Under the pieces are notes generated by a model. That model did not search any database, was not told the origin of the DNA, and was given only the letters and a program-made list of their open reading frames with translations. Shown piece by piece: positions 1 to 14,502 of a stretch of 21,174 nucleotides of DNA. The first letter of the stretch is position 1. Each line of letters starts with the position of its first letter. This DNA is from a virus. Location of the stretch: positions 1 through 21,174 of the IMG/VR virus record IMGVR_UViG_3300025636_000050, one strand, 5' to 3'. Position numbers and translations under genes: made by a program.

Positions 1-193
1 CGCTTCGTTCCTATTGCTAAAGAGTTTTTATGTGTAATGTGCAGTTTTTCGACAGCCAACAATCTATCTATACCAACCAGTGAGCCCAATTTGTTTGATG
101 GCTTCCTCCCTCTGGGGAGTCGATCAGTATGTTACGTGTGCTTCTATACGAGAGCTTTTTCCACAGCGGTATTATTAAACTGGCCCGCCAACC
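1..193. other. Left-edge stretch with no supported gene
   Basis: No minus-strand ATG lies here that could begin a gene running off the left edge. Plus frame 1 is open from the window edge to a stop at 244-246, but it runs antisense into the end of the nuclease gene and its product resembles no family I know. On the minus strand one frame stays open past the nuclease stop (194-196) for about 40 codons, and another is open from about base 130 to the edge without a convincing start. By hand count G+C is about 45%, richer than the neighbouring genes. A short inverted repeat (106-110 with 115-119) is present, without a T-tract. It may be intergenic DNA, a gene remnant, or the 5' end of a gene with a non-ATG start. 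Confidence 0.4.
106..119. repeat. Small 5-bp inverted repeat (hairpin)
   Basis: CTCCC and GGGAG flank a 4-base loop TCTG. Read on the minus strand, the GGGAG arm continues as GGGAGGA, which resembles a ribosome-binding site, so the hairpin could hide it. No start codon lies at a suitable distance and no T-run follows. It is therefore neither a clear terminator nor a clear translational switch. Confidence 0.3.
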
Positions 194-643
194 TTAAGTG
201 TTGGATTGTTTTGCCTGTATGGAGTGTTCTAGCAACGCCTGTTTGAGTTTGTCTGATCCGCCTACTCTAACATTAATAATACCATTATAGTATTCGTCTG
301 TTTCAAGTACACGCCTATCAAATTGTTCTCTTGCCTCTATGTAGGACATTTCGCCCCTACCTTTACATAGGTATAATATTTCTCTTGTGAAATTTTCTTC
401 GCCTAATGCTGCTACATCTGCGTTTAGTCTGTCTGAACTACCGTAGTATGTTCGCCAATCGCTTTCTTTGTAACCGCGTCTTTTATTCTTCTTGCCTTTT
501 AGAGGTGGCTTAGTAGTTTTAAATTTTGCTAGTTTTTTGCCTACGTACTTTTGACCAGTGGTAAGATTCGTAATAAGATAAACAAAGCCTTCATACTCAT
601 CTGGTATTGTGTCTATTTGTTTACCTTCATACGTCCACTGCAT
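194..643 (-). CDS. GIY-YIG-type endonuclease-like protein
   Basis: A 149-residue protein with the GIY-YIG core near its N-terminus. The first strand is G19-F-V-Y22 (in place of GIY), and the second is Y33-V-G35-K36 (in place of YIG), followed by a lysine-rich segment (36-56). A W63-R-T-Y-Y-G-S-S block follows, where R64 is a possible catalytic arginine. An E-A-R-E stretch near residue 103 is a candidate for the metal-binding glutamate, and asparagines occur at 120 and 124. Proteins of this kind are free-standing in T4-like marine phages and are often labelled Seg-like or homing endonucleases; T4 DenA has the same fold but is not a close match. The gene is last in the minus-strand gp47-gp46 operon, 10 bases after the preceding stop, with only a weak ribosome-binding site. 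The fold is fairly secure; whether it is a homing enzyme, a repair nuclease or a host-DNA nuclease is unknown. Confidence 0.75.
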   Translation of the reverse strand: MQWTYEGKQIDTIPDEYEGFVYLITNLTTGQKYVGKKLAKFKTTKPPLKGKKNKRRGYKESDWRTYYGSSDRLNADVAALGEENFTREILYLCKGRGEMSYIEAREQFDRRVLETDEYYNGIINVRVGGSDKLKQALLEHSIQAKQSNT

Positions 644-653
644 GAAGTACTTA

Positions 654-863
654 TTATTTGCCTTTTTTCTCAGCCTCTTTCTTGGCAGTGTATGAGTCGT
701 GTATTTCGATCATTCGTTCTTTTGCAAGTGTACGAATTTCACGTAGCCACCGTCTGCTAGCTGCGTGTGTTCTGTGACTTTTACGCGACTCGTAAGATTC
801 GTTTGCCTTAAAATATTCTAGATAAGCTTTTGTTAGCTTGTCATGTGTATCATCGTCTATCAT
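654..863 (-). CDS. Small basic charged protein, unknown function
   Basis: A 69-residue, highly charged, probably all-helical protein. An acidic N-terminus (D3-D-D) is followed by Lys/Arg-rich helices (residues 26-50) and a Lys/Glu-rich tail. There is no signal peptide or membrane segment. The start codon overlaps the gp46 stop as ATGA, which points to translational coupling and to real expression with the recombination genes. Small proteins of this style recur next to gene 46 in marine T4-like phages as far as I recall. The basic helices would suit nucleic-acid or protein binding, but no catalytic motif or known domain is visible. It ends in tandem stops (TAA TAA). Confidence 0.7.
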   Translation of the reverse strand: MIDDDTHDKLTKAYLEYFKANESYESRKSHRTHAASRRWLREIRTLAKERMIEIHDSYTAKKEAEKKGK

Positions 864-2629
864 TCTACAACTTCAACATCATTTTCGTAACTTGTAAAGC
901 CGTTTTCTTTTACAACTTTAAGAATATGATTTACTCTACCTACTAGCTCGTCTTTGTGCGAGATTAAAAAGATATTCTTTTCACGCTCACGTGCAATTTT
1001 CTTAAGAACACTTAGTGCACCTTCAACGCCGGCAGTGTCCATGCCACTATCAATAAGCTCATCGATAAACAACAAGTTGATATTTTGATACAAGCTTTCC
1101 CAAACGTCACGGAATGCAAAGCTAAGACCTAAGATAAGTCTGTTACGTTCGCCTCGACTCAAGTTATCAAAGTCCAAATCCTGTCCTAGTTGCGTAATCT
1201 CGACATTCAAATCGTTTTGGAACACAACTTGATGCGGCAATCCTAGTTTGTCTAAGTAATATGTTAGACGATTGTTCAAATATGCTAAGTTTTGTTCAAT
1301 AATCTTCTTGCGAATGAAACTGTCTTTGTTTGTAAGCAGCTTTAACAAAAACTCTTGATGCTCTTTGTAATTTGTAAGTTCGTTAATAGAACCCCAACTA
1401 ATCTCTTGCATGGCACTAGTGGTTAATTCATCAATTTGTGCTTGATAAGGATCATTCTCTGCTTGCTTTGACTGTAATGCTTGCTTTAAACTATCAACAT
1501 TTTGTCTATGCTCGTATGCTTCTTTGGCGCTGTCATAAAACGTTGTAGGTTTACCATTGATATCACCAATTTCTTCAAGTGCTTTCATTACATCAGTAAG
1601 TTTGCCTGAAACTTCTGTTTGATATGCTAGTGCATCAGCAAGTTCTTTGTTCTTACGTTCTGCAATTTCTGCTTTTTTGTCTGCATGAAGTTCTTGTCCA
1701 CAAGTATAACAAGTAGCATCTTCTAGTTCTGCAATATCTTTTTCTGCTTTGGTTACACTTTTGTCAGCACGTTGCAGTGCAGGTTCAAGTGTGCTTAGTT
1801 CTTTCTTAAGAGCTAGGATAGCATTGTTATGTTCGGTCCAGTTTGCTAATTTTTCATGCGACTCTAGTTCAGCTTCGATATCTAAGTGTTCTAGTTCGTT
1901 GATGCCTTTTTGCAATTTAGCAATATCTTGTTCACGTTTAGCAAGCCAAGCACGTTGATTGCCCTGCAAGCTTGTAATAGTAGTTTCAATCTTACTATTA
2001 GCAGCCTGTATTGCTTCAATCTTTAGTGTTTCTTGTGTAATAGAATCTTTGGTACTACGTACTTGTTCTTTTAAGTTTTCTGCCTTTTCAGATAAGATAG
2101 TAATACCTAAAAGTTGCTCAATAATAGCACGTTGGTCGTTTGTACGCATTGCTAAGAACGGTTCTGAGTATGTATTCAGTGCAACAATGTGTTTAAACAT
2201 ATCGTGCGACATACCTAGCAAGTCAATTAAGTATTCTTGCGTCCTGCGACTATCACCTTGCGACTCATCTTCTATTTGTTCTTCATTGTTAATAAAAAAC
2301 TTAAAGAAAGTAGGCGAACGACCTCGCTCAATACGGTATTGATTGCCATCTTTTTCAAAATCTAAGCTAACAACCATGCCTTTTGAGTTAGTTTTGTTAA
2401 TAAGATTGTTAGCTCTAATGTTAGTAAGTGCTTTACCGTACATTGCATATGACAGTGCATTAATAATAGTAGTCTTACCAGTTCCGTTACGACTTCCGCT
2501 GTCGTCTCCGCCTTGATCTAAGTTTTCGCCAAGTACTAGAGTTAGTTTTTCTTTGTTAAAATCTACAGCCTGGGTTTGATTCCCCACACTCATAAAATTC
2601 TTAACTGTTAAATCCTTAATTTTTATCAT
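860..2629 (-). CDS. 46: gp46, Rad50/SMC-like recombination exonuclease subunit
   Basis: A 589-residue ATPase subunit of the phage gp46-gp47 complex, the counterpart of Rad50-Mre11 and SbcCD. The complex resects DNA ends for recombination-dependent replication, and in T4 also helps degrade host DNA. Landmarks in order: N-terminal beta strands, Walker A G45-S-R-N-G-T-G-K52-T-T, a long coiled coil (about 180-400) interrupted by a zinc hook C307-Y-T-C310, the ABC signature L490-S-R-G-E-R, Walker B L519-L-F-I-D-E524, a D-loop near 528-531, and the H-loop H558 in I-S-H-K. All key residues are present and the length is close to T4 gp46 (about 560). Its start overlaps the gp47 stop (ATGA) and its stop overlaps the next start (ATGA), so the trio is read from one message, probably from the promoter before gp47. 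Confidence 0.95.
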   Translation of the reverse strand: MIKIKDLTVKNFMSVGNQTQAVDFNKEKLTLVLGENLDQGGDDSGSRNGTGKTTIINALSYAMYGKALTNIRANNLINKTNSKGMVVSLDFEKDGNQYRIERGRSPTFFKFFINNEEQIEDESQGDSRRTQEYLIDLLGMSHDMFKHIVALNTYSEPFLAMRTNDQRAIIEQLLGITILSEKAENLKEQVRSTKDSITQETLKIEAIQAANSKIETTITSLQGNQRAWLAKREQDIAKLQKGINELEHLDIEAELESHEKLANWTEHNNAILALKKELSTLEPALQRADKSVTKAEKDIAELEDATCYTCGQELHADKKAEIAERKNKELADALAYQTEVSGKLTDVMKALEEIGDINGKPTTFYDSAKEAYEHRQNVDSLKQALQSKQAENDPYQAQIDELTTSAMQEISWGSINELTNYKEHQEFLLKLLTNKDSFIRKKIIEQNLAYLNNRLTYYLDKLGLPHQVVFQNDLNVEITQLGQDLDFDNLSRGERNRLILGLSFAFRDVWESLYQNINLLFIDELIDSGMDTAGVEGALSVLKKIAREREKNIFLISHKDELVGRVNHILKVVKENGFTSYENDVEVVE

Positions 2630-3636
2630 AGCTCGTTATAAATGTCCAGTAGCATTTTCTTGTTGAAGTTTTCGCTGTCAATTGCAGTAATTTCTTTAGA
2701 TACAATTTCATCAACACTTTCAAATGTAGAAATATCTAAGTCTGTAGTAATTTCTTCGATTTGTTTTTGTGGAATTAATGTAATTTCACGACAGTTGTGC
2801 TGACTAATGTAAGTTTCTTTGATAAACTGTGCTTCTTCGTAGCTAATAGGTACATCAATAGTGACACGCAAGTACATTTTAGGTTTAATAATATCTGCAT
2901 TAGGATCTAACAACTTGCTTAGTGAAGTTGTGCGATATTTAGGACAGTTCCACCAGTTAATGTACTCGGGCTCTTTACCGTTTTCGCGATCTAGTATCAT
3001 CATGCCACGTTCGTCATCCCATACATCGGCATAGTTGTGCGGAAACGCATTACCGATGTAATGAATCTTACCTTGCACTTGTCGTTTGTGGAAGTGACCA
3101 CTAAACACATACTCTTGATTAGCAAAATGACTAGGACGCAAGTCGCCGTGATCAGGCATTTTAACTAAGGCATTCATGTAAAAGCTAGGAAGTTCAAAGT
3201 GTCCAAACATATATTTGGATTTAATTTTTTCAATCTTCTTCCATTCGTCGCCTACTAGCCAAGGAACAAGTGCAACGTCATCTTCGATAAGAATTTTGTC
3301 TACAAATGTAATTCCTGGAATGTGTTTAGCAAAAGCAGTACTATTAACGTCACGTTTGTCTTTATAATACAAGTCGTGATTACCATCAAAGAAGTAAAAC
3401 TTCTCAAATGCAGCACCTAGCTTTTCCATACATCTAATTGTTGCATCCATAGTGGTAAGATTAAGCGAATTTCTGTTATGATGCCAGTCTCCGCAGAAAA
3501 TGCCAGTCTCGCAACCGGCAGCTTGTGCTTGTTCTATGTACCAATCAATAAATTCTTCACAATCTTCATTGTGAACACGACTGTTACCTTTTAGTCCGAA
3601 GTGAATGTCTGTAAACACTGCTGCTTTTTTAAACAA
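2626..3636 (-). CDS. 47: gp47, Mre11/SbcD-like recombination nuclease subunit
   Basis: A 336-residue calcineurin-like metallophosphoesterase that forms the nuclease half of the gp46-gp47 end-resection complex. Metal-binding motifs appear in the usual order: D10-I-H12, G49-D50-W-H52-H, G85-N86-H87-D88, G145-H146, and G180-H181-F-H183. The length matches T4 gp47 (339). The start is a TTG at 3634-3636. An in-frame TAG lies just upstream, no ATG or GTG is available, and a good AGAGGA ribosome-binding site sits 8 bases before the TTG. The gene lies immediately behind a perfect sigma70-type promoter and overlaps gp46 by ATGA, so the two subunits are coupled in expression. Confidence 0.95.
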   Translation of the reverse strand: MFKKAAVFTDIHFGLKGNSRVHNEDCEEFIDWYIEQAQAAGCETGIFCGDWHHNRNSLNLTTMDATIRCMEKLGAAFEKFYFFDGNHDLYYKDKRDVNSTAFAKHIPGITFVDKILIEDDVALVPWLVGDEWKKIEKIKSKYMFGHFELPSFYMNALVKMPDHGDLRPSHFANQEYVFSGHFHKRQVQGKIHYIGNAFPHNYADVWDDERGMMILDRENGKEPEYINWWNCPKYRTTSLSKLLDPNADIIKPKMYLRVTIDVPISYEEAQFIKETYISQHNCREITLIPQKQIEEITTDLDISTFESVDEIVSKEITAIDSENFNKKMLLDIYNEL

Positions 3637-3663
3637 ATTTAGATTCCTCTATTATGATGTCTT

Positions 3664-3692
3664 ATTATAGCAAGTTTTTCTACACCTGTCAA
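3664..3692 (-). promoter_or_regulatory. Perfect sigma70-type promoter for the gp47-gp46 operon
   Basis: On the minus strand the -35 box TTGACA (3687-3692) and the -10 box TATAAT (3664-3669) are separated by exactly 17 bases (3670-3686). The expected start point is near 3657, giving a leader of about 20 bases that holds the gp47 ribosome-binding site. The -35 box begins 4 bases after the gp55 stop. Such a promoter should be read by unmodified host polymerase early in infection; the timing is inferred. Confidence 0.88.
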
Positions 3693-3695
3693 CAG

Positions 3696-4520
3696 TTATT
3701 TTGTATTTTTTTCTTCGCGTTTTAGTGCAGCTTCCCATTCACCTGCATGTTGTCTAGTATGACTAGGATTTAAATCATTCATTTCGAGAATGTCGTCTCG
3801 AATATTTTGATTACGCTTTTCTATATTAATAATACGAACAAAGCTATTAGTAACAGCAGCGGTATAATAAGCAAAGGGGTTATTAGATTTAGCTTCATCA
3901 AATTGTAGTCCAATTTGTGCAAGTTGGAGGATTGCTTGTCCTCTCATTTCGTCATTATATGTATATCCACGAACATTACCTCGAGTAGCATACCGTTCAC
4001 ACAGCTTAATCCACATCATAGCAAGTTTATTTGTTGCTTGACCTTTTTTAAGATTAAAGAAACCGTTCTCCATGCCGCCCTCCCAGTGTGATTTTCCTAC
4101 ACACACTAATTCACCGTCGTCATTAAATTTAAAATGTTGAAATGGAGGAAAGTTGAGTTTAACTCGAGTGTCTGCCACTGTCTTTGGGTTCTTTTTACGA
4201 CCTGGTTCTTCCGGAATATGGTCAAATGTCATAATTCTAAAGATTAATTCTTCTTTGGTAATCTTTCGATAGTCAACTTCGCAATCTGCTTGTTTAACTT
4301 TTTCACCAGATTCTTTTCGTGCAGCGTAGTCGGCTTGTGATAATCTTTTTGCCTTATTTCGTTTAGCTTCTGCAATGGTCCTAATGTTAATTTTTTCGAT
4401 ACTTTCTAAAATAATATCGTATTGGGCAAAGTCAACTTCAACAAAACTTGAAAAAGATGCTTTTGACTTGTGTATTTCTAATAATAAATCTTTATTATTA
4501 AGATAGTTTACTTTTCTCAT
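3696..4520 (-). CDS. 55: gp55-like sigma factor for late transcription
   Basis: A 274-residue protein resembling the T4 gp55 family, which directs host core RNA polymerase to late promoters together with the sliding clamp and gp33. The sigma region-2-like core lies in the C-terminal half: a helix around 166-180 (A-M-M-W-I-K-L-C-E-R), Y186-T-Y-N-D-E-M-R-G, and N214-P-F-A-Y-Y-T followed by F228-V-R-I-I-N-I-E-K-R. It is about 90 residues longer than T4 gp55 (185). The extra material is mostly at 50-160, including a conserved-looking V141-G-K-S-H-W segment that I associate with the exo-T-even form. The tail after 240 is charged and could hold the clamp-binding end. ATG at 4518-4520 follows AGGAGA at short spacing. 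The gene has its own sigma70-type promoter and diverges from the late genes it should activate. Confidence 0.88.
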   Translation of the reverse strand: MRKVNYLNNKDLLLEIHKSKASFSSFVEVDFAQYDIILESIEKINIRTIAEAKRNKAKRLSQADYAARKESGEKVKQADCEVDYRKITKEELIFRIMTFDHIPEEPGRKKNPKTVADTRVKLNFPPFQHFKFNDDGELVCVGKSHWEGGMENGFFNLKKGQATNKLAMMWIKLCERYATRGNVRGYTYNDEMRGQAILQLAQIGLQFDEAKSNNPFAYYTAAVTNSFVRIINIEKRNQNIRDDILEMNDLNPSHTRQHAGEWEAALKREEKNTK

Positions 4521-4544
4521 GGAGTCTCCTGATATGTTATATAC

Positions 4545-4573
4545 ATTATAATATATGTAGTTTAAAAAGTCAA
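4545..4573 (-). promoter_or_regulatory. sigma70-type promoter of the gp55 gene
   Basis: On the minus strand TTGACT (4568-4573) is followed after 17 bases by TATAAT (4545-4550), one mismatch from full consensus. The start point should be near 4538, leaving a leader of about 18 bases that contains the AGGAGA ribosome-binding site of gp55. Host polymerase should therefore make the late sigma factor without phage help. Confidence 0.85.
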
Positions 4574-4581
4574 CTAAATAA
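4574..4581 (+). promoter_or_regulatory. Putative T4-like late promoter before the baseplate cluster
   Basis: CTAAATAA matches most of the T4 late -10 element TATAAATA, with no sigma70 -35 box upstream. Initiation about 6 bases downstream would give a 14-base leader carrying AGGAGAG, which fits the start at 4600. A related TAAATA element lies before gp6. The assignment rests on motif likeness and position only. Confidence 0.55.
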
Positions 4582-4599
4582 TACTATAGGAGAGCACAT

Positions 4600-5373
4600 A
4601 TGGCTAACTTTTTAAAAAATCTAGGCAATAGTCTTGTTAATACAGCAAAACAGTCTATAATAGACGAAGTGTCAGATACTAATTTTGGAAGAGCACTAAG
4701 AACACTAAATATTCTTCCTGGAGCCAATCCGGATAATACTTCATCATTTGCATCGGGTTCTTGGGATACCGGAACAAATGCAGATTGGCGTGTTAGAATT
4801 TCTGTACCTCCTGGTGGTACATATGGTAGCAGTACGATACTATCACCGTTAAGAGAAACACAAAATTCTATGGTCTTTCCTTATACTCCTCAAGTTTTTA
4901 TTACGCATAGTGCTAATTACAGTGCGCTACAGCCTACACATAGTAATTATCCTTTTCAAATCTACAGTAATTCTTCTGTAGATGCTTTTACAGTTACTGG
5001 TGAATTTACAGTAGAAAACTCAAAAGAAGCAGAATATTGGATTGCCGCAGTGCATTTTTTAAGAAGTATAACTAAAATGGCTTACGGAGATAGTTCAAAT
5101 AAAGGTTCGCCGCCGCCTGTTGTAAAATTAAACGGATATGGTGATTACGTATTTAATAATGTTCCTGTAGTTATTCAAAACTTTAATGTTACTTTACCAT
5201 CTGATGTAGATTACATACCTGCTAGCATTGGCTTTAACGGGTCATATGCTCCTACTAAGTCTGAAATTGCAGTATCAATGGTACCAGCATATAGTAGAGA
5301 TAAGGTTAACAAATTTAGTCTTGACAAATTTGTTAATGGCGGTTACATTTTAGGCGGAGATGGGTATATTTAA
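4600..5373 (+). CDS. 48: Baseplate tail-tube cap/initiator protein (gp48/gp54-like)
   Basis: A 257-residue late structural protein. It resembles the protein annotated as gp48 (baseplate tail-tube cap) in marine T4-like phages; T4 gp48 and gp54 are related tube-initiating proteins sitting on the hub. Visible features: an amphipathic N-terminal helix (F4-L-K-N-L-G-N-S-L), beta-rich segments at 62-72 and 94-135, a helix V151-H-F-L-R-S-I-T-K-M160 followed by A-Y-G, and a strand pair ending V198-T-L-P-S-D-V-D-Y-I. The C-terminus is Gly-rich. There is no signal or membrane segment. It is the first gene after the late-type promoter, and its TAA stop overlaps the next ATG (TAATG). gp48 versus gp54 cannot be decided from sequence alone, since only one such protein is in view. 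Confidence 0.65.
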   Translation: MANFLKNLGNSLVNTAKQSIIDEVSDTNFGRALRTLNILPGANPDNTSSFASGSWDTGTNADWRVRISVPPGGTYGSSTILSPLRETQNSMVFPYTPQVFITHSANYSALQPTHSNYPFQIYSNSSVDAFTVTGEFTVENSKEAEYWIAAVHFLRSITKMAYGDSSNKGSPPPVVKLNGYGDYVFNNVPVVIQNFNVTLPSDVDYIPASIGFNGSYAPTKSEIAVSMVPAYSRDKVNKFSLDKFVNGGYILGGDGYI

Positions 5374-5675
5374 TGGCTAATTATGACGATAAAAGTCCTT
5401 ATAAAGACACTAGAGACGTAGGCGGACAGTATTTAGGAATCTTAAATATTAGACCAGTTCCTGCAGAAAATGACGACATATTATATGAAATCGAGTCGCA
5501 ATATACTTATAGACCTGATTTGTTAGCTTACGATTTATACGGTGATCGACGTTATTGGTGGGTTTTTGCTCAAAGAAATATGAATGTTTTAAAAGATCCT
5601 GTATACGATTTTAGACCAGGAACACAGATATACCTACCTAAAGAACGAAACATTACATCAAAGTTAGGAGGTTAA
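5373..5675 (+). CDS. 53: gp53-like baseplate wedge protein
   Basis: A 100-residue protein carrying the gp53 signature Y46-R-P-D-L-L-A-Y-D-L-Y-G followed by R59-R-Y-W-W-V-F-A, then Y78-D-F-R-P-G-T-Q-I-Y-L-P, which has the look of a LysM-like baseplate module. In T4, gp53 links neighbouring wedges around the hub during baseplate assembly. T4 gp53 is 196 residues; this one is about half that and seems to hold only the conserved core, as is usual in marine relatives. The start overlaps the upstream stop (TAATG), suggesting reinitiation. The next gene follows after 4 bases. Confidence 0.85.
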   Translation: MANYDDKSPYKDTRDVGGQYLGILNIRPVPAENDDILYEIESQYTYRPDLLAYDLYGDRRYWWVFAQRNMNVLKDPVYDFRPGTQIYLPKERNITSKLGG

Positions 5676-5679
5676 TAAA

Positions 5680-8475
5680 TTGCCTTTTGAACCTCAAAAT
5701 TTACAAGCTAGATTAAATCAAATAGGTCAAGATTTTACTAATAGTTCCGAACAATTTGGTAATGACTTAGGTAATACTCTACGACAACCGTTACCAACTT
5801 CGGCAAATATTTCCTTAGATCCCTTAGGACAAGCTCTTATTGATACAACAAGTTCAGCAAGGGGAGCAATTTCTGCAATTAATTCTGTAATTTCTAATCC
5901 AGGAGCAGCATTAGGAAATGCTGTTAGTGGAGCACTAGGCGGAGCACTAGGCGGAGTACTAGGCGGAGCACTAGGCGGGTTATTCGGCAGCGGCGGTATT
6001 GGCCTTCAACCTAATTCATTGAATAAGTTTGCAAGTTATAATAACATTTTTACTTTTGGTGCCGTAAGTAGAACTTCTTACAATACTCCAAATTTTTCAT
6101 ACAGGACAGGAGGTCCGGATGTAGTAGTACTAAGATCTGGAGGAACATCAGGCGATCAAGTAAAAACTCCACTAGAGAAATCTGCTGGAATTACTGGAGA
6201 ATATTTTATTGATGATGTTGACATCATATGCCTCGTAGCACCTAATAGCAGAACACAACAAACAAATGCTACTACGATTACGTTTAATGTTATGGAACCG
6301 TATAGTATGGGATTATTCATGCAATCGTTACACATAGCAGCCGCAAAGGCAGGATATAGTAATTATTTAGAAGCAGTATATTTACTACAAGTAGAATTTA
6401 TCGGTTATGACGACAACGGTCGTTCAGTAAAAGACTCGCGATCTACTAGAATGTTTCCTTTAAAACTTTCAAATGTTGAATTTGAAGTTACTGAACAAGG
6501 AAGTAATTATTTTATTGAAGCTATTCCGTATCACGAATGGGCATTGTCAGACGAAGTACAAATGACTCCAGTAACCGTAGATATTCAAGGATCAACTATA
6601 TCAGAACTTTTACAAACAGGTCCGCAAAGTCTTTCTACTATTCTAAATACAAGAGAACAAGAACTACAACAAGCAGGAAATAAAAAAGTTGCAGACGAAT
6701 ACGTTATTATGTTCCCCAAAAGTATGTCTAGTGCATCAAATTCGCCGTTAGGTGCAGCAATACCAGCATTGCAAGGCGCAACAACTGCTTCCGCAGCTGA
6801 CGCAGGAACAGAAGGAGCTGACTCAGAAGATTCTAATAAAAATCAAAAGTTATATGATCAATTAACTGGCATTGAAGGCGGCGAAGTGCCTGCAGATTTT
6901 GATGCAGAAATTAGTAAAGTACTAGGCATTGTTGTAAGACGTAGTGAAATTGGAGAATCTATTAGAGAATCTGCAGAAAGCGAAGAAAATATAAATGCCA
7001 TAGGACAAAGTAAAATTGTTAAAAGCTTTTTAGATCAAGGAACACAATATTTTGGCCGTCCTGCGTTTGTAGAAGATAAAGAAAATGCTCCAGGCATTTT
7101 TCAAAGAGGTAATATAAAAATAAGCGACGAAGGAAGAAGAATTAACTTTGCTCAAGGAACTAAGGTACAAAATATAATAGAAGAAGTTGTACTTCTTTCA
7201 GATTATGCAAGAAATTTTGTATCCGAACAACCAGATGCTAACGGCATGAAAACTTGGTTTAGAATTGAAAGTGATGTATTTTTAGTTCCTGGAAATTCAA
7301 ATGTTGCTGCCACAGGCCAAGGCGCAAAGGTATATGTTTATAAAGTTGTTCCTTATAAAACCCAGGTAGCTAGATTTACATCGCCAACTTCTGCACCTCC
7401 AGGATATCCTAATCTAAAAACTCAGGCTATTAAAAAATACGATTATTTATATACCGGAGAGAATGACGATATAATAGATTTTAATATTAATATTAATGCT
7501 GCATTTTTTACAGCATTAAACGGTGACTTTGGACAATTAAGTGCAAGTCAGATTACACTTGGAGCAAACGGTTTAGTTATAAATCCCGAATCGCCAACGT
7601 TTGGTACTTCTAGCGGAAATAACACTAATTCGTCAACTTCTGGAATAAGTAGTGCTAGACCTACTCCGACTACAAATACAGGCCAAGCAGGTTCTGGACC
7701 ACAAAATCATCCTGAAAATGCTATTGCTAGAACATTTAACGATGCAATTGTAAATAGCGAAACTGACTTGGTGGGTATTGATTTTGAAATTTGGGGAGAT
7801 CCTTATTATATTACAGATAGCGGAATGGGAAATTACAACTCATCTCCTACAGGTAGTATTAATTTAAATAGTGACGGATCTATGGATTATCAAAGCGGAG
7901 AAGTAGATATTTTAATAAACTTTAGAACCCCAGTTGACATACGAGATCCGGGTTTTATGAAATTTCCAGCAGGCGGTACAAAAGCAGTTGGTGCTTTTAG
8001 CGGCCTTTACCAAGTAATAGAAGTTACAAATTCGTGGAGTAGTAATAGATTTACTCAAAAATTAAAAACAATTAGAAGAAGAAATCAACCAGAAGATACA
8101 GGCGTTTCTCCTATTGATATTTCTATAGAAAGTATTATTGAAAAAGGTCTTGATGCTATTATTTCTCCATTAGTGTCATCTCCGGTTGCAGCATTTAGCG
8201 GAGCAATAGATGATATACAAGGACAAATTGATCAGTTAGGTGCAACACTTTCTCAAGGAATCGGCGGCGCAGTAGCAAATGGTGTTGCTGCACTTGACGC
8301 TGCTGCATCTGACGCCGTTGGAAATATTTCATCTTCGATATCCGGTTCTGCTCCAAATATACCTGCTGCGCAGCAGTCTAGTGCAGCTTCAGTAACTGGC
8401 GCTGAAGATAATACTTTTGAAGCACAACATGCAGAGTATCTAGCTAAAGCAAGAAGAGTAACTGGAAGAACTTAA
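5680..8475 (+). CDS. Large Gly/Ala-rich virion protein, probably baseplate hub-associated
   Basis: A 931-residue protein starting at TTG (5680-5682), with a strong AGGAGG 8 bases upstream; no better start is seen. Residues 1-75 are polar helices. Residues 75-110 form a Gly/Ala/Leu glycine-zipper stretch encoded by 12-bp repeats. Residues 115-300 hold a beta-rich domain with Y229-L-E-A-V-Y-L-L-Q-V-E-F and G242-Y-D-D-N-G. A charged linker spans about 360-480. A second beta domain contains T-G-E-N-D-D-I-I-D-F near 591-600 and F-S-G-L-Y-Q-V-I-E-V near 770-780. The tail (about 820-931) is Ala/Ser/Gly-rich. It lies between gp53 and the gp5 spike, and no separate gp27 gene is visible, so a gp27-type hub role is a reasonable inference. 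I do not recognise it beyond a marine T4-like virion protein of this position. Confidence 0.7.
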   Translation: MPFEPQNLQARLNQIGQDFTNSSEQFGNDLGNTLRQPLPTSANISLDPLGQALIDTTSSARGAISAINSVISNPGAALGNAVSGALGGALGGVLGGALGGLFGSGGIGLQPNSLNKFASYNNIFTFGAVSRTSYNTPNFSYRTGGPDVVVLRSGGTSGDQVKTPLEKSAGITGEYFIDDVDIICLVAPNSRTQQTNATTITFNVMEPYSMGLFMQSLHIAAAKAGYSNYLEAVYLLQVEFIGYDDNGRSVKDSRSTRMFPLKLSNVEFEVTEQGSNYFIEAIPYHEWALSDEVQMTPVTVDIQGSTISELLQTGPQSLSTILNTREQELQQAGNKKVADEYVIMFPKSMSSASNSPLGAAIPALQGATTASAADAGTEGADSEDSNKNQKLYDQLTGIEGGEVPADFDAEISKVLGIVVRRSEIGESIRESAESEENINAIGQSKIVKSFLDQGTQYFGRPAFVEDKENAPGIFQRGNIKISDEGRRINFAQGTKVQNIIEEVVLLSDYARNFVSEQPDANGMKTWFRIESDVFLVPGNSNVAATGQGAKVYVYKVVPYKTQVARFTSPTSAPPGYPNLKTQAIKKYDYLYTGENDDIIDFNININAAFFTALNGDFGQLSASQITLGANGLVINPESPTFGTSSGNNTNSSTSGISSARPTPTTNTGQAGSGPQNHPENAIARTFNDAIVNSETDLVGIDFEIWGDPYYITDSGMGNYNSSPTGSINLNSDGSMDYQSGEVDILINFRTPVDIRDPGFMKFPAGGTKAVGAFSGLYQVIEVTNSWSSNRFTQKLKTIRRRNQPEDTGVSPIDISIESIIEKGLDAIISPLVSSPVAAFSGAIDDIQGQIDQLGATLSQGIGGAVANGVAALDAAASDAVGNISSSISGSAPNIPAAQQSSAASVTGAEDNTFEAQHAEYLAKARRVTGRT
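5929..5976 (+). repeat. Four tandem 12-bp repeats encoding a glycine zipper
   Basis: Units GGAGCACTAGGC start at 5929, 5941, 5953 (one base changed, GGAGTACTAGGC) and 5965, followed by a diverged GGGTTATTCGGC. In frame they encode Gly-Ala-Leu-Gly units (residues 84-99 of the 931-aa protein). The near-identity at DNA level suggests recent slippage or selection to keep the repeat. Confidence 0.9.
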
Positions 8476-8522
8476 ATTAATACAGTAGTATACAGAATAA
8501 CAAAAATTAGAGATAGGTTATA

Positions 8523-10508
8523 ATGGTAGATAAGATCAATAATAATCAAGTTGAAAGAACAAGTCAACGAGGTACTAAAGAACAATTTCCTTCGCAACCT
8601 AAAGTTGCTGTTGTTAGAAATCATCTAGATACAACATATATGGGAAATCTTGAAGTTGAATTGTTAACATCATCGAACTCTGGACAATCTACTAATGCTC
8701 CAGGACAGATGATTGTAGCAAAATATATCAGTCCTTTTCACGGAGTAACGTCTTTACAAGGAACGTCAGATAACGCAGGTTATTTAAATAGTCAAAGAAG
8801 TTACGGATGGTGGGGTGTTCCACCGGATATTGGTGCTAAAGTTCTTGTAATTTTTGCAGAAGGCGGCCAAGCATTTTGGATCGGATGCATTCCAGAAGAG
8901 CATACTAATATTATGACGCCAGATCCGTATGTTTCTAGCACATACAATGATTTAGATGACTCTAAAAAATTACCTGTAGTAGAATATAATAAAAGAACCG
9001 AAGACGGAAATGGAAGAAATAGTACACAGTTTATTAAACCTGCAAATGAAGATATAATTAATGTTTTAGCTACTCAAGGTTTACTTGAAGATGAAATAAG
9101 AGGAGTAACAAGCACTAGTTCTCGTCGAGAAGTTCCTAGTGCAGTAACTGGATTTAGTAGTCCTGGACCACAAGATAGACGTCCTGGTTCTCCTAGAGTA
9201 AATTATGGCGAAAATTTTGCACAAACTCCAATGCCCCAAAATAGATTAGGCGGCAGTAGTTTAGTATTTGACGACGGTGATGCTACATTGTTGCGTAAAA
9301 CTCCAGCAAAAGACGGACCTCCTGTGTATGCAAATGCCGAAGCTGGAGAAACAGACGGCGATCCTACACTTCCTCATAATGAACTAGTACGTTTAAGAAC
9401 AAGAACGGGTCATCAAATATTGCTCCACAATACAGAAGATTTAATTTATATTGCTAATGCACGAGGCACTACTTGGATTGAATTAACTGCAAACGGAAAA
9501 ATTGACATTTATGCACAAGACAGTATTAGTGTACATAGTGAAGCAGACATTAATATGAAAGCCGGTGCTAATGTTAATATTGAAGCAGGAGCAGATATTA
9601 ATTTAAAAGCAGGCGGCGATACAAACATAACTGCTCCGGGCAGTGTAAACTTAGATACTCCTGATACAAATATGAAAAATTTAGATGTAAACGGCAATGC
9701 AATAATAAGTGCAAATACAAACACAGGTTCTTTGTCAGCAGGAAGTGTTAATGGAACTAGTGCAGGTTCATCTTGGACAGATCGCCCAGGAAGTGACAAT
9801 CAAATACTTGGATCACATAGTTCTGCATCGCCTACAGCTCCGACAGCGGCTATACCAAGCGCAAGAGTTCCCTTGCACGAACCTTGGAGTGGGCACGAAA
9901 ATTTGTTCAACACTACTGCTACAACTCCTGATACATTTAGACAAAATACATCAAGAGAAGCATCAGCTACACCAAATACATCGCCGCCTGAAACAGCCGA
10001 AGCACCGTCATCTGCACCTGTTGACGGCGTAGTGTCGACTCCTGAAGTTTCGTCAACTAGTATACCTACTGACGTTGGAAATGCATTAGGCGGAGTGCAA
10101 GAAAGTGTTAGTCAATTTAGTGTAGGAAACTTGGTAAACTCTGTAGTAGACTCAGCTTCTCAGATTACCCATAGTGTCGGACAGTCAATTGTAGGAGCAA
10201 TTGACAACATTGCAAGCCCAGGAACATTGAGTAGTATTACAGACGGCATTATTGGGTCAGCAGTATCTAATACAGTCGGAGCATTAGGTAGCTTGCTTAA
10301 TTTAAGAACTTCTCTAGCAAAGGGACAAACTCCAAACCGTGCATCAGTAACTCCTCCTGGCCCGTATGACGAATTAGACCCTAAAATCGATGTAGCAACA
10401 TTTAAATCAGTAGCAGCAGGCGAGTATCCAGACGGATCTACGGTAACTTTAACTAACGGCAAGACGTACACAGTTACAAAATCTGGTGATTATTACGAAT
10501 TAACATAA
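8523..10508 (+). CDS. 5: gp5-like baseplate central spike, no visible lysozyme domain
   Basis: A 661-residue spike protein. Residues 25-125 form the OB-fold that seats the spike on the hub; its end is marked by Y94-G-W-W-G-V-P-P and V107-L-V-I-F-A-E-G-G-Q-A-F-W-I-G-C. A polar linker (130-290) follows, where T4 gp5 carries its lysozyme; no T4-lysozyme-type catalytic segment is seen. From T293-R-T-G-H-Q-I-L-L the chain enters a beta-helical needle with about six octapeptide repeats (336-380), each like I-N-L-K-A-G-G-D. Past 430 come Ser/Thr/Pro/Ala-rich linker, a hydrophobic Gly/Ser/Val segment (517-600), and a small C-terminal domain (613-661). In T4, gp5 trimerises and pierces the outer membrane. 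The ribosome-binding site is weak (GATAGG). The assignment is firm; the muralytic function seems absent. Confidence 0.85.
   Translation: MVDKINNNQVERTSQRGTKEQFPSQPKVAVVRNHLDTTYMGNLEVELLTSSNSGQSTNAPGQMIVAKYISPFHGVTSLQGTSDNAGYLNSQRSYGWWGVPPDIGAKVLVIFAEGGQAFWIGCIPEEHTNIMTPDPYVSSTYNDLDDSKKLPVVEYNKRTEDGNGRNSTQFIKPANEDIINVLATQGLLEDEIRGVTSTSSRREVPSAVTGFSSPGPQDRRPGSPRVNYGENFAQTPMPQNRLGGSSLVFDDGDATLLRKTPAKDGPPVYANAEAGETDGDPTLPHNELVRLRTRTGHQILLHNTEDLIYIANARGTTWIELTANGKIDIYAQDSISVHSEADINMKAGANVNIEAGADINLKAGGDTNITAPGSVNLDTPDTNMKNLDVNGNAIISANTNTGSLSAGSVNGTSAGSSWTDRPGSDNQILGSHSSASPTAPTAAIPSARVPLHEPWSGHENLFNTTATTPDTFRQNTSREASATPNTSPPETAEAPSSAPVDGVVSTPEVSSTSIPTDVGNALGGVQESVSQFSVGNLVNSVVDSASQITHSVGQSIVGAIDNIASPGTLSSITDGIIGSAVSNTVGALGSLLNLRTSLAKGQTPNRASVTPPGPYDELDPKIDVATFKSVAAGEYPDGSTVTLTNGKTYTVTKSGDYYELT
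9528..9662 (+). repeat. Octapeptide repeats of the beta-helical needle
   Basis: These are consecutive 24-bp coding units (residues about 336-380 of the spike) of the pattern (I/V)-N-(M/I/L)-(K/E)-A-G-(A/G)-(D/N). They are conserved at protein level but diverged at DNA level. An 8-residue period is the hallmark of the gp5 C-terminal and VgrG-type triangular beta-helix. Confidence 0.8.
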
Positions 10509-10521
10509 GGGTAAATACGAT

Positions 10522-10968
10522 ATGAGTACACAAGAAAAAAGCATTTATAAACAAATAGTTGTTCCTGGAAACCAATCTCAAGTTGCAATTCCAGAATCAA
10601 GAGCTTATAGAGGAATAAGCACAGTTGATCCTGATGCTACTGAATGGATATTATACGATATTGCCCTAATTAAACAAGATATTATCAATCATTTTCATAT
10701 TCGCCAAGGTGAAAAGTTAAGTGATCCAGAATTTGGAACTATTATTTGGGATGTACTTTTTGAACCATTAACTGACCAACTTCGTGATGCTATTACTAAA
10801 AATGTATCAAGACTTATTAACTATGATCCAAGAGTAAATGTTGATAATATTATAATATCTTCCTATGAAAGTGGAATACAAATTGAATGTACATTAGCTT
10901 ATTTGCCTTATAACATTTCAGAAACTATGAATCTAAAATTTGATGAAAATGCTGGGTTTTTATCATAA
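10522..10968 (+). CDS. 25: gp25-like baseplate wedge protein
   Basis: A 148-residue protein of the gp25 family, one of the best conserved baseplate components in contractile tails and type VI secretion (TssE). In T4 it joins gp6 and gp53 at the wedge core and helps start sheath assembly. Visible: R30-G-I-S, D45-I-A-L-I-K-Q-D-I (helix), Q62-G-E-K-L-S-D-P-E-F-G-T, then W76-D-V-L-F-E-P-L and Y101-D-P-R-V. The last resembles the E-P-R-type element of the family with Glu replaced by Asp. Slightly longer than T4 gp25 (132) because of a polar N-terminus. It sits 13 bases after the spike gene, with AAGG as a poorly spaced ribosome-binding site, so it may depend on coupling. Confidence 0.9.
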   Translation: MSTQEKSIYKQIVVPGNQSQVAIPESRAYRGISTVDPDATEWILYDIALIKQDIINHFHIRQGEKLSDPEFGTIIWDVLFEPLTDQLRDAITKNVSRLINYDPRVNVDNIIISSYESGIQIECTLAYLPYNISETMNLKFDENAGFLS

Positions 10969-10994
10969 AATAAACTACGCACATAATATAATAA

Positions 10995-11003
10995 AATAAA
11001 TAC
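10995..11003 (+). promoter_or_regulatory. Putative late promoter before gp6
   Basis: AATAAATAC closely matches the T4 late consensus TATAAATA. The expected start near 11008 gives a leader of about 18 bases that includes GAGGAAAG (11012-11018), 7-8 bases before the gp6 ATG. It lies in a 57-base AT-rich gap (10969-11025), the longest within the late cluster, which fits a second late start point. A TATAAT at 11006-11011 has no -35 partner. Confidence 0.55.
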
Positions 11004-11025
11004 ATTATAATGAGGAAAGCAACAC

Positions 11026-14000
11026 ATGTCATCTACAGATAGGCAAAACAGATTATTAATAGCAGAAGACTGGAAAAAAGTTTATCAGTCTTTCCGTAAC
11101 GCAGATTTTAAAAGTTACGATTTTGACAATCTACGCCGCACAATGATTTCTTACTTGCGTGAGAATTACCCAGAAGATTTTAATGATTATATTGAATCGA
11201 GTGAATATCTAGCGCTCATTGACATGATTGCATTTTTAGGTCAAAACATTGCTTTCCGTATTGACTTAAATGCTCGTGAAAATTATTTAGAGCTAGCAGA
11301 GCGCCGCGAAAGTGTATTACGTTTAGCAAGACTTCTTTCCTATAATCCTAAGCGTAATCAAGCAGCAAATGGTCTACTAAAAATTGAAGCAGTTAGTACA
11401 ACTGAAGAACTAATTGATTCAAATGGAATCAATCTTGAAAATCAGACAATTCAATGGAATGATTCGTCTAATCCTGATTGGTACGAGCAGTTTATTAGAG
11501 TAATAAATTCTGCATTGCCTGTTAACGGCACTTTTGGAAGACCAGTAAAGTCAGAAATTATTAGCGGAGTTCCTACTGAGCAATATCGAATGAATTCAAC
11601 TAATACAGAAATACCTGTTTATAGTTTTACAAAAACAGTTGACGGTAAAAGTGTTCCTTTCGAAGTTGTATCGACAGATATTAATGATTCTGAAATCTAC
11701 GAAGAACCACCATTCCCTGGCAACAATTATGCATTCCTTTATAGAGAAGACGGAAGAGGCGTAGCAAGTTCAAATACTGGCTTTTTTACACATTTTAGAC
11801 AGGGTAAAATAGATACTGGTCAATTTAATGTTACTAATCCTAGCACAAGTCAAGTTGTAGCAATTGATGCAAGAAATATTAATCAATCAGATGTTTGGTT
11901 ATATAACTTAGATAGTATTGGAAATGAACAAGAACTATGGACAAAGGTAGATGCTGTTGAGGGTAACAATGTAATTTACAATAGTTTAAATAAAAGTATT
12001 AGAAACATTTATAGTATCTTAACACGCATCGAAGATAGAATTAGTTTAATCTTTTCAGACGGTACTTTTGGTAATCTTCCGCAAGGTAATTTCCGTGTTT
12101 ACTATCGTTCTAGTAAAAATCAAAGACTTGTAATTACTCCTGATAATTTACGTGGTATTTCTGTACGTATTCCTTACGTGTCAAAAGCAGGTAAAGCTGA
12201 AACTATAACAATTACACTTGAGTTAAAGTACACTGTAGACAATTCAACAGTGTCAGAGACTAATGCAAGTATTAAGAAAAATGCTCCTAGCACGTATTAT
12301 ACTCAAAATAGATTAATTACTGGTGAAGATTACCAATTAGGACCATTAGCAGTAAGTCAAGAAATAGTAAAAGCAAAAAGTGTAAACAGAATTTCGAGCG
12401 GTATTAGTAGATATTTTGATCTAGTTGATGCAACTGGAAAATACAGTACTACAAACTTATTTGGCACAGATGGAGCAGTTTATAAAAACTATATAACAAC
12501 AAAAACAGGCTTTGCATTTGAAACACTTACAGATATTGAAGGTCAAATACTTAACACTATTGAACCTATTTTATCTAGTATTAAAGTACGTAATTATTAT
12601 TACGATAAATTTCCTAAGCTTTTGGTTGAAGACCTAGGAGCAACATGGACACAACTTACTGAAGATACTAACAATTTTACCGGTAGGATGATTAATTCTG
12701 CAGGCGTATTAGTAAAAACGGGAACCTTTACTGGTTCTAATATGAAATTTGTAAAACCAAATAGTTTGTTAAAGTATATTCCTCCAGAAGGATATCATTT
12801 TTTAAATGGTAAATTACAACTAGGTGCTCCGGATTACAGAGGAGGCACAGATTACAAGTGGGTAAAGGTTATAAGTGTTATAAGAGACGGGACTGAAATT
12901 CAAGAAGACGGTTCAGGTCCTATTACTATTAATGATAGTATTCCTACTGGTTCTAGATTAATTGAAATTAGAACTGCACTTCCTACGGCGCTTACTGCTG
13001 ACGTTCAAGCTCAAATTACTGCACAAATATTTGCTTATAAGACATTTGGATTACGTTATTCTAGAAATGACGGTGAATGGAGATTAATTACAGAAAATAA
13101 TCTAGCGGCTAACAGCGAGTTTAGTACAGGTAAAACTGGAAATACTACCGGCCAGCAATTAGATGCTAGTTGGATTTTAAAATTTAATACAGATGGCGAA
13201 AAGTACACTATTACACATCGTGAAATGCGATATGTATTTGAAAGTGATCAAGATATAAGATTTTATTACGATAGCAGCGATAAGATTTATAATAACCGTA
13301 CTGGAAAAATTGTAAAAGACAAAATTAATGTTCTAAGTATTAATACTAAGCCTACACAATCCAATCCTTTTAACACTGATTATCTTTGGGAAATTGTTGA
13401 AGAATATAGAGATGCCGAAGGGTATATTGATAGTAAAAAAATACAAGTAAGTTTCTTCGACGAAGACGACGATGGAGTTGTTGATAATCCTGAAGTGTTT
13501 AATGATATTGTAGACGAATTTAATATTACTGATGAAAATATCGATAAAAAACTAGTTTTTCAAAAGAAAAAAACAACAGCAGACGGAGTTGAAGACTTTG
13601 TTTATGTTTCTAAAAACAATATTTTTAGAGACCCTGATCAACTTATTTTACTATCAAAATCTAATAGAGCACCATTAAGTTCGTACGAAGATGGAGATAT
13701 TTTATACTATCTAACGGAAGATATCTTTGAAGTGTTTAACGAAGCAACTACACAATTAACAATTACAACAGATTATAAAGCATTTGTTGGTAGAGACGGA
13801 TTAAAATTTCAATATGTGCATGCTGCTGATCAAGAAAGCAGGATCGATCCTAGTGCAAGTAACATCATTGACACTTATTTGTTAACACGAGGTTATGATA
13901 CACTATTTAGAAAATGGCTAGACGGTGACATAGATAATAAACCTCTACCTCCTAGTAGTGATGATTTATACATTAGTTATGCTAGCAATTTGAATAAAAT

Positions 14001-14502
14001 TAAATCATTAAGTGACGAACTTATCTATCATCCGGTTAAGTACAAAGTGTTATTTGGTTCAAAGGCAAAAGAAGACTTGCAAGCAACATTTAAAATTGTT
14101 AAAAATCCTAATTTAGTGTTAAATGATAACGAACTAAAATCAAATGTTATTAGTGCAATAAACAAATTTTTTGCACTTGACAATTGGGATTTTGGAGATA
14201 GATTTTACTTTTCGGAATTGGCAAGTTATGTAATGAGTCAGTTATCGCCAAATCTTGTTACCTTTGTAATTGTTCCAGTTCAAGAAGATCAAGGTTTTGG
14301 ATCGTTACAAGAAATTAAAGCCGAATCAGACGAAATTTTTATTAGTAATGCCACAGTTGCAAATATAGAAGTAATAGATGCAATTACTGCTGGCAGATTA
14401 AAATCGCAAGGAGCAGTTGTAACAAGTGTTACAGCTACTAATACTGGCATCCAAAGTGGTGTATCAAACTCAACGTTAAATAACGGAGGCCTTAGCTACT
14501 AA
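11026..14502 (+). CDS. 6: gp6-like baseplate wedge protein, enlarged
   Basis: A 1,158-residue protein of the gp6/J-type wedge family. In T4, gp6 dimers make the inner ring that holds the baseplate together and drives its change of shape. The N-terminus has the family pattern: D21-F near a region with Y43-L-R-E-N-Y-P, then Y62-L-A-L-I-D-M-I-A-F-L-G, N82-A-R-E-N-Y and L102-L-S-Y-N-P. A long beta-rich middle follows. An EF-hand-like loop D812-E-D-D-D-G-V-V-D-N-P-E823 lies near residue 812. The C-terminal domain includes V-N-F-V-type strands and Y-x-F-S-E-L-A near 1065. T4 gp6 is 660 residues, so about 500 residues are inserted. Strong GAGGAAAG precedes the ATG. The stop overlaps the next start (TAATG). 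Confidence 0.88.
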   Translation: MSSTDRQNRLLIAEDWKKVYQSFRNADFKSYDFDNLRRTMISYLRENYPEDFNDYIESSEYLALIDMIAFLGQNIAFRIDLNARENYLELAERRESVLRLARLLSYNPKRNQAANGLLKIEAVSTTEELIDSNGINLENQTIQWNDSSNPDWYEQFIRVINSALPVNGTFGRPVKSEIISGVPTEQYRMNSTNTEIPVYSFTKTVDGKSVPFEVVSTDINDSEIYEEPPFPGNNYAFLYREDGRGVASSNTGFFTHFRQGKIDTGQFNVTNPSTSQVVAIDARNINQSDVWLYNLDSIGNEQELWTKVDAVEGNNVIYNSLNKSIRNIYSILTRIEDRISLIFSDGTFGNLPQGNFRVYYRSSKNQRLVITPDNLRGISVRIPYVSKAGKAETITITLELKYTVDNSTVSETNASIKKNAPSTYYTQNRLITGEDYQLGPLAVSQEIVKAKSVNRISSGISRYFDLVDATGKYSTTNLFGTDGAVYKNYITTKTGFAFETLTDIEGQILNTIEPILSSIKVRNYYYDKFPKLLVEDLGATWTQLTEDTNNFTGRMINSAGVLVKTGTFTGSNMKFVKPNSLLKYIPPEGYHFLNGKLQLGAPDYRGGTDYKWVKVISVIRDGTEIQEDGSGPITINDSIPTGSRLIEIRTALPTALTADVQAQITAQIFAYKTFGLRYSRNDGEWRLITENNLAANSEFSTGKTGNTTGQQLDASWILKFNTDGEKYTITHREMRYVFESDQDIRFYYDSSDKIYNNRTGKIVKDKINVLSINTKPTQSNPFNTDYLWEIVEEYRDAEGYIDSKKIQVSFFDEDDDGVVDNPEVFNDIVDEFNITDENIDKKLVFQKKKTTADGVEDFVYVSKNNIFRDPDQLILLSKSNRAPLSSYEDGDILYYLTEDIFEVFNEATTQLTITTDYKAFVGRDGLKFQYVHAADQESRIDPSASNIIDTYLLTRGYDTLFRKWLDGDIDNKPLPPSSDDLYISYASNLNKIKSLSDELIYHPVKYKVLFGSKAKEDLQATFKIVKNPNLVLNDNELKSNVISAINKFFALDNWDFGDRFYFSELASYVMSQLSPNLVTFVIVPVQEDQGFGSLQEIKAESDEIFISNATVANIEVIDAITAGRLKSQGAVVTSVTATNTGIQSGVSNSTLNNGGLSY

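Follow-up and report, generated by a model that had tools for sequence, protein, structure and literature searches.

Overlapping early and late promoters and a late-promoter palindrome at the gp55 locus of a T4-like phage group

Gene layout and promoter anatomy

The window (record IMGVR_UViG_3300025636_000050, 21,174 nt) is a genome fragment from a T4-like phage, and its features are given in Table 1. The genes of the late sigma factor gp55, gp47 and gp46 lie on the minus strand, and a series of virion and baseplate genes beginning with the gp53 operon lies on the plus strand; 79 bp separate gp55 from the gp53 operon. The long ORF named gp6, for which the Pfam search gave no match, owes its name to its size and the gene order. 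Four near-perfect 12-nt repeats (GGAGCACTAGGC) at 5929-5980 give the virion protein a GALG repeat. A sigma-70 promoter with all 12 consensus bases (TTGACA-17-TATAAT) is located before gp47 at 3692-3664 on the minus strand, and similar sites also follow gp55 in other contigs; judging from this site, gp47 may have its own early promoter separate from that of gp55.

Table 1. Genes and promoter features of the window
Feature	Position	Strand	Basis or remark
SegE-like GIY-YIG homing endonuclease ORF	194-643		Downstream of gp46; Pfam PF19835, E 1.3e-35
gp46	860-2629	-	
gp47	2626-3636	-	
gp55 late sigma factor, 274 aa	3696-4520	-	phrog_12791, E 1.7e-74; phrog_234, E 9.9e-22
Expected early transcript start	4538	-	From sigma-70 spacing
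-10 box TATAAT of leftward early gp55 promoter	4545-4550	-	Read directly
Palindromic late-promoter upstream element TAATATATGTAGTTTA, weak copy	4549-4564	+	Score 11.1, gp6-trained PWM; within early spacer
-35 box TTGACT of gp55 early promoter (AGTCAA on plus)	4568-4573	-	Read directly
Late -10 element TAAATA, rightward promoter	4575-4580	+	Read directly
Expected late transcript start	4586	+	From T4 spacing
Virion structural protein, gene 1 of late operon	4600-5373	+	phrog_12050, E 1.6e-47
gp53-like baseplate wedge protein	5373-5675	+	phrog_7145, E 5.6e-27; Pfam PF11246
Large virion protein	After gp53 in rightward order	+	
gp5-like hub/lysozyme	8523-10508	+	
gp25-like wedge protein	10522-10968	+	
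Second palindrome copy TAAACTACGCACATAA	10971-10986	+	Score 18.0; upstream of gp6
Late TAAATA of gp6	10997-11002	+	Palindrome spacing same as at gp55
Long ORF, called gp6	11026-14502	+	Size and gene order

The leftward gp55 promoter, TTGACT-17-TATAAT, matches 11 of the 12 consensus bases with a spacer of 17, as expected of a sigma-70 early promoter, and is among just three sites scoring 11 or more in positions 1-12000 of the window. The TAAATA element on the opposite strand is placed 25 nt before the rightward virion/baseplate operon. The sole base separating TAAATA from the -35 box is a C on the plus strand at 4574, which is almost always a G on the gp55 strand in the related loci and is explained by neither promoter consensus; the fused copies carry this C directly before TAAATA, and most other late promoters carry an A there. 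The two promoters are antiparallel and overlapping, packed in a conserved segment of about 36 bp, and this anatomy is solid.

TAAATA is not over-represented in the window as a whole (32 found, 46 expected). In 11 contigs with 695 ORFs, called by a simple script so that the gene starts are approximate, it occurs 105 times at 23-40 nt before ORF starts, where 6.6 are expected, a 16-fold enrichment; in a 335-kb contig, 49 are found at -20 to -40 against 5.6 expected. A -10 element resembling TATAAATA at leader distance before late genes is the arrangement of T4-type late promoters, and TAAATA, judged from its placement, serves this lineage as the late element. The earlier note, made from the window alone, had placed the early and late boxes one base apart, which direct reading confirms, and its assignment of the two boxes is borne out by the match to sigma-70 promoters and by the enrichment before ORF starts. 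It had also staked its proposal on TAAATA being conserved in related phages; the element, read as TATTTA on the gp55 strand, is found within 170 nt upstream of gp55 in 261 of 265 distinct loci, where about 9% is expected by chance. The transcript starts that it named, 4538 to the left and 4586 to the right, agree with usual promoter spacing and are kept here as expected positions.

Conservation of the fused register

A total of 80 IMG/VR relatives of gp55 were fetched, giving 79 loci with enough upstream DNA, the window included. The 12-mer TATTTAGTTGAC, which holds both boxes, is exact in 74 of the 79, TATTTATTGAC takes its place in two, and the promoters are apart in three. As the loci were not chosen for carrying the composite, 74/79 is a fair measure of conservation; in these 74 loci the 12-mer stays fixed while the N-terminus of the neighboring gene varies. 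When composite-carrying loci were aligned, the flanking columns mostly reached 0.2-0.9 bits, and the TATAAT box hardly varied among the 63 distinct close loci aligned, which had been selected with a pattern that required a -10-like box. In a scan of IMG/VR for TATTTAGTTGAC-N18-TATAAT, 71 of the 80 matches listed precede gp55 (68 by tblastn and three truncated genes by eye), and the nine others are without the conserved spacer. Since the 12-mer is exact in 74/79 loci and 71 of the 80 listed matches stand at gp55, the juxtaposition of the boxes is not due to chance. In 11 contigs totaling 951 kb, TATTTAGTTGAC is present as one copy per contig, always at gp55, and this single copy rules out the fused composite as the general early promoter of the phage.

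Among the 265 distinct gp55 loci of the wider lineage, the fusion is exact in 142 and one base shorter in five; these counts replace the 158 given by a loose regular expression, which included the false positives L365 and L428. In about 100 of the 265, the promoters are 12-60 nt apart or in another register. In L276, L497 and L297 (from the contigs of L025, L044 and L055), the early promoter is about 55 nt off while TATTTA and the palindrome described below still adjoin, and their nesting inside the fused clade marks them as loci with re-separated promoters. The overlap is not indispensable, because it is absent from about 100 relatives and was lost in these three loci. On the gp55 tree, which comes from a quick search with modest support and a few mis-scored states, the fused state changes eight times against a mean of 68.8 after shuffling, and most fused rows form one large group.

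Other forms of overlap were also observed. In L438, L463, L434, L433, L450, L477, L467 and L452, TATTTA itself takes the place of the -35 box, with an extended -10 box (TGTGCTATTAT or alike) following about 17 nt later, which is a different and even tighter overlap. In L403, L437, L473 and L392, the early promoter contains TATTTA within its spacer.

The overlap could result from compaction only, where a short intergenic space brought the promoters together, the register was inherited, and occlusion has no regulatory role. The gaps of the fused loci in long contigs, 79-87 bp, are near the minimum for two promoters and two leaders, and the fused state, being mostly confined to one clade, may be a frozen accident. 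However, the register tolerates almost no insertion or deletion over more than 100 distinct gp55 genes, and other subclades overlap differently, with TATTTA either replacing the -35 box or standing within the spacer, a pattern that hints at repeated selection. Compaction alone is a possible explanation, and we place it on the unlikely side.

The order of the gp53 operon and gp55-gp47(-gp46) is kept in the cultured phages PA5oct, PBECO4, RaK2, BF, CBB and Vibrio phage 2.275, and several cultured jumbo phages carry TATTTA beside an early-type box in unfused form. The boxes of CBB and PBECO4 are close and unfused, and no clear palindrome was seen at them; the cultured Agrobacterium phage Atu_ph07 carries the 12-mer TATTTAGTTGAC at gp55, where its sequence reads TATTTAGTTGACAAATTAACTA, without a good -10 box at the right distance. 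The fused site is also carried by two contigs in a Neomarinimicrobiota MAG, L501/G021:C57 (PBPT01000016.1, 335 kb) and L502/G021:C77 (153 kb), in which the gp55 match score is identical (485 bits, 77%). The same tail genes are present on the 335-kb contig, which is probably a jumbo phage placed in the wrong bin, so the name of the bin gives nothing firm on the host. The fused promoter is a feature of a large group of T4-like phages, most of them uncultured.

A palindromic element upstream of late promoters

Conservation extends to the 18-nt spacer of the gp55 promoter, which holds a palindromic element with the consensus TTAANTRC|GYANTTAA. As shown in Table 1, the element recurs upstream of gp6 at an equal distance to TAAATA, and no early promoter was seen on this gp6-upstream element in the window. 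All 42 distinct gp6 upstream regions carry TAAATA together with the palindrome or the variant AATTAANTACGCACTTTA at nearly fixed spacing, with the palindrome at about -30 from the late start. A symmetric position weight matrix (PWM) trained on the gp6 sites only finds 37 strong sites in 951 kb, training sites included, of which 34 are intergenic, where intergenic sequence makes up 3% of the DNA; after removal of the gp6 and gp55 sites, about 21 of 24 strong palindromes are intergenic by hand count.

When the matrix was scanned by position over 261 gp55 loci, it peaked at the offset of the element in the window. The mean score of the fused loci is 11.3 at offset 10, and the unfused loci peak at offset 9, where 36% score above 5, with nearly none elsewhere. 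In loci with the early promoter elsewhere, the peak lies 8-10 nt past TATTTA and almost nowhere else. A role of the conserved spacer as part of the early promoter is ruled out by its recurrence at gp6 and by its staying with TAAATA in unfused loci; on this positional evidence, the palindrome belongs to the late promoter, though it lies inside the early spacer. At 16 places, the palindrome center lies 18 nt from TAAATA, and further palindromes stand at baseplate-hub, tape-measure-like, tail sheath and tail tube genes and at two small uncharacterized genes, where the tape-measure and sheath names come from the look of the sequence and the gene order.

The symmetry of the element suggests that a dimeric protein probably binds it. 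A CtrA box (TTAA-N7-TTAA) is ruled out by the eight bases between the arms and by the conserved TRCGYA core. No obvious transcription regulator emerged among 71 small ORFs of two contigs with Pfam and PHROGs (25 of 78 PHROG families listed), and neither a published account of the palindrome nor a transcript map of phages of this lineage was found in the literature searched. In the promoter of a conserved 96-aa gene (MSRPKPT...) with no assigned family (G010:C1 8364-8435, G006:C1 13191-13259, G007:C1 4906-4974 and G021:C57 144166-144221), two palindromes stand about 30 bp apart, an arrangement that an autoregulated gene might have.

At gp55 and at genes of 90-96 aa, the palindrome center lies 5-6 nt before -10-like boxes, which is a classical repressor position; the palindrome could accordingly be read as mainly a repressor operator of gp55 and similar early promoters, with its proximity to TAAATA secondary. 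However, gp6 keeps the distance between palindrome and TAAATA in 42/42 regions with no early promoter noted there, and unfused gp55 loci keep the palindrome with TAAATA and not with the early promoter, so that we consider this reading improbable. Strong sigma-70 promoters commonly have AT-rich upstream flanks, and TATTTA beside the -35 box might be such an extension rather than a late promoter, but this is very improbable, as TATTTA persists in the 261 loci even where the early promoter is elsewhere, precedes the divergent late gene by the length of a leader, and reads on the other strand as an element enriched before ORF starts.

Proposed switch and relation to known systems

The gp55 of the window belongs to the gp55 family by sequence and by its sigma domain 2 fold, and the best match of its predicted fold is T4 gp55 in the RNA polymerase complex (7d7c_F, Z 11.4, 3.3 Å over 118 residues). 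With 274 aa, it exceeds T4 gp55 by about 90 residues, and helices and strands are predicted with high confidence in the extra part, residues ~25-155. A match of this part to a domain reading the -35 region was considered and rejected, as the structure search with whole gp55 gave folds of sigma domain 2 and, beyond those, poor matches.

In the proposed mechanism, host sigma-70 polymerase would transcribe leftward from TTGACT/TATAAT early in infection to produce gp55, probably together with its neighbors gp47 and gp46. The gp55 protein would then redirect polymerase to TAAATA on the opposite strand and to the rightward baseplate operon; a late complex on the site would shut down further gp55 synthesis, and early occupancy would delay the late operon. 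With standard footprints, polymerase at either promoter would span all of 4545-4590, and occupation should therefore be mutually exclusive. The earlier note had proposed that gp55-programmed polymerase would cover the -35 region of gp55; the boxes do overlap as it described, but it considered just one direction, and the late promoter is larger than TAAATA, including the palindrome. Because the palindrome at about -30 lies in the early spacer, the overlap spans the whole early promoter, and exclusion would act both ways. A dimeric protein on the palindrome would extend over the early spacer and onto the border of the early -10 box, and its position relative to the late start would be about -30; such binding would block the early promoter, and it could either gate the late promoter or assist it. 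An early-to-late switch with feedback on gp55 is plausible on this promoter geometry. Against the explanation, the unfused relatives presumably work, so overlap is not required, and the palindrome copy at gp55 in the window is weak. We regard the whole explanation, comprising the fused two-way promoter, mutual polymerase exclusion, the end of gp55 synthesis upon late success, and the palindrome-bound protein, as reasonably probable.

Divergent overlapping promoters with a shared operator are known from temperate-phage switches. The present locus resembles them in that the promoters stand back to back, the polymerases would exclude each other, and a palindrome lies between the boxes; it differs in that each direction uses a sigma factor of its own, and the factor for the rightward promoter is the product of the leftward gene. 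In the middle promoters of T4, the MotA box is an element centered near -30 that replaces the -35 box; the element of this lineage also lies near -30 in place of a -35 box, whereas it is palindromic and paired with a late -10 element. The search for the MotA activation domain PF09114, run without a positive control, gave no match in 11 contigs.

The T4 late promoters (TATAAATA, gp55/gp33/gp45) likewise combine a gp55-family sigma factor with a TAAATA-type -10 element before structural genes. They lack both an upstream and a -35 element and use gp45 and gp33 (PMC2988020), whereas some late promoters of the present lineage carry a palindrome at a set position of about -30, as in the 42 gp6 regions and at gp55. 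In Pectobacterium phage CBB and Cronobacter phage GAP32, the late motif ATAAATA and a second promoter class have been described (PMC5259590); they share with the present lineage a related gp55, the divergent synteny of the gp53 operon and gp55-gp47-gp46, and ATAAATA before structural genes, and they differ in that TATTTA and the -35-like box of gp55 are 5 nt apart and unfused and the palindrome is undescribed there. The gp45 C-domain PF09116 gave no match in the partial lineage contigs, PA5oct or CBB, where a cyanophage control was positive; the clamp N-domain PF02916 gave no match anywhere, the cyanophage included, and is hence uninformative. Published work reports no gp33 or gp45 homologues in CBB (PMC5259590). 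From these searches, a site-specific activator may possibly take the place of the clamp. More specifically, and only tentatively, the lineage may be one without clamp-dependent late activation, in which a dimeric regulator at about -30 of selected gp55-dependent tail and baseplate promoters acts on an operator that also shuts off gp55.

T4 late transcription is the model for the coupling of late genes to replication via the sliding clamp, and a T4 late promoter is described as consisting of a -10 box alone. In this widespread T4 relative, gp55 promoters carry a positioned palindrome, and the promoter of the sigma gene itself is built over one of these gp55 promoters; to the specialist, a positioned palindrome in gp55-type promoters is more surprising than the overlap. 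The locus gives a concrete, testable handle on clamp-free control of late transcription and on the self-limitation of gp55. If the reading with a regulator in place of the clamp is true, one protein-DNA contact would start tail-gene expression and end gp55 synthesis.
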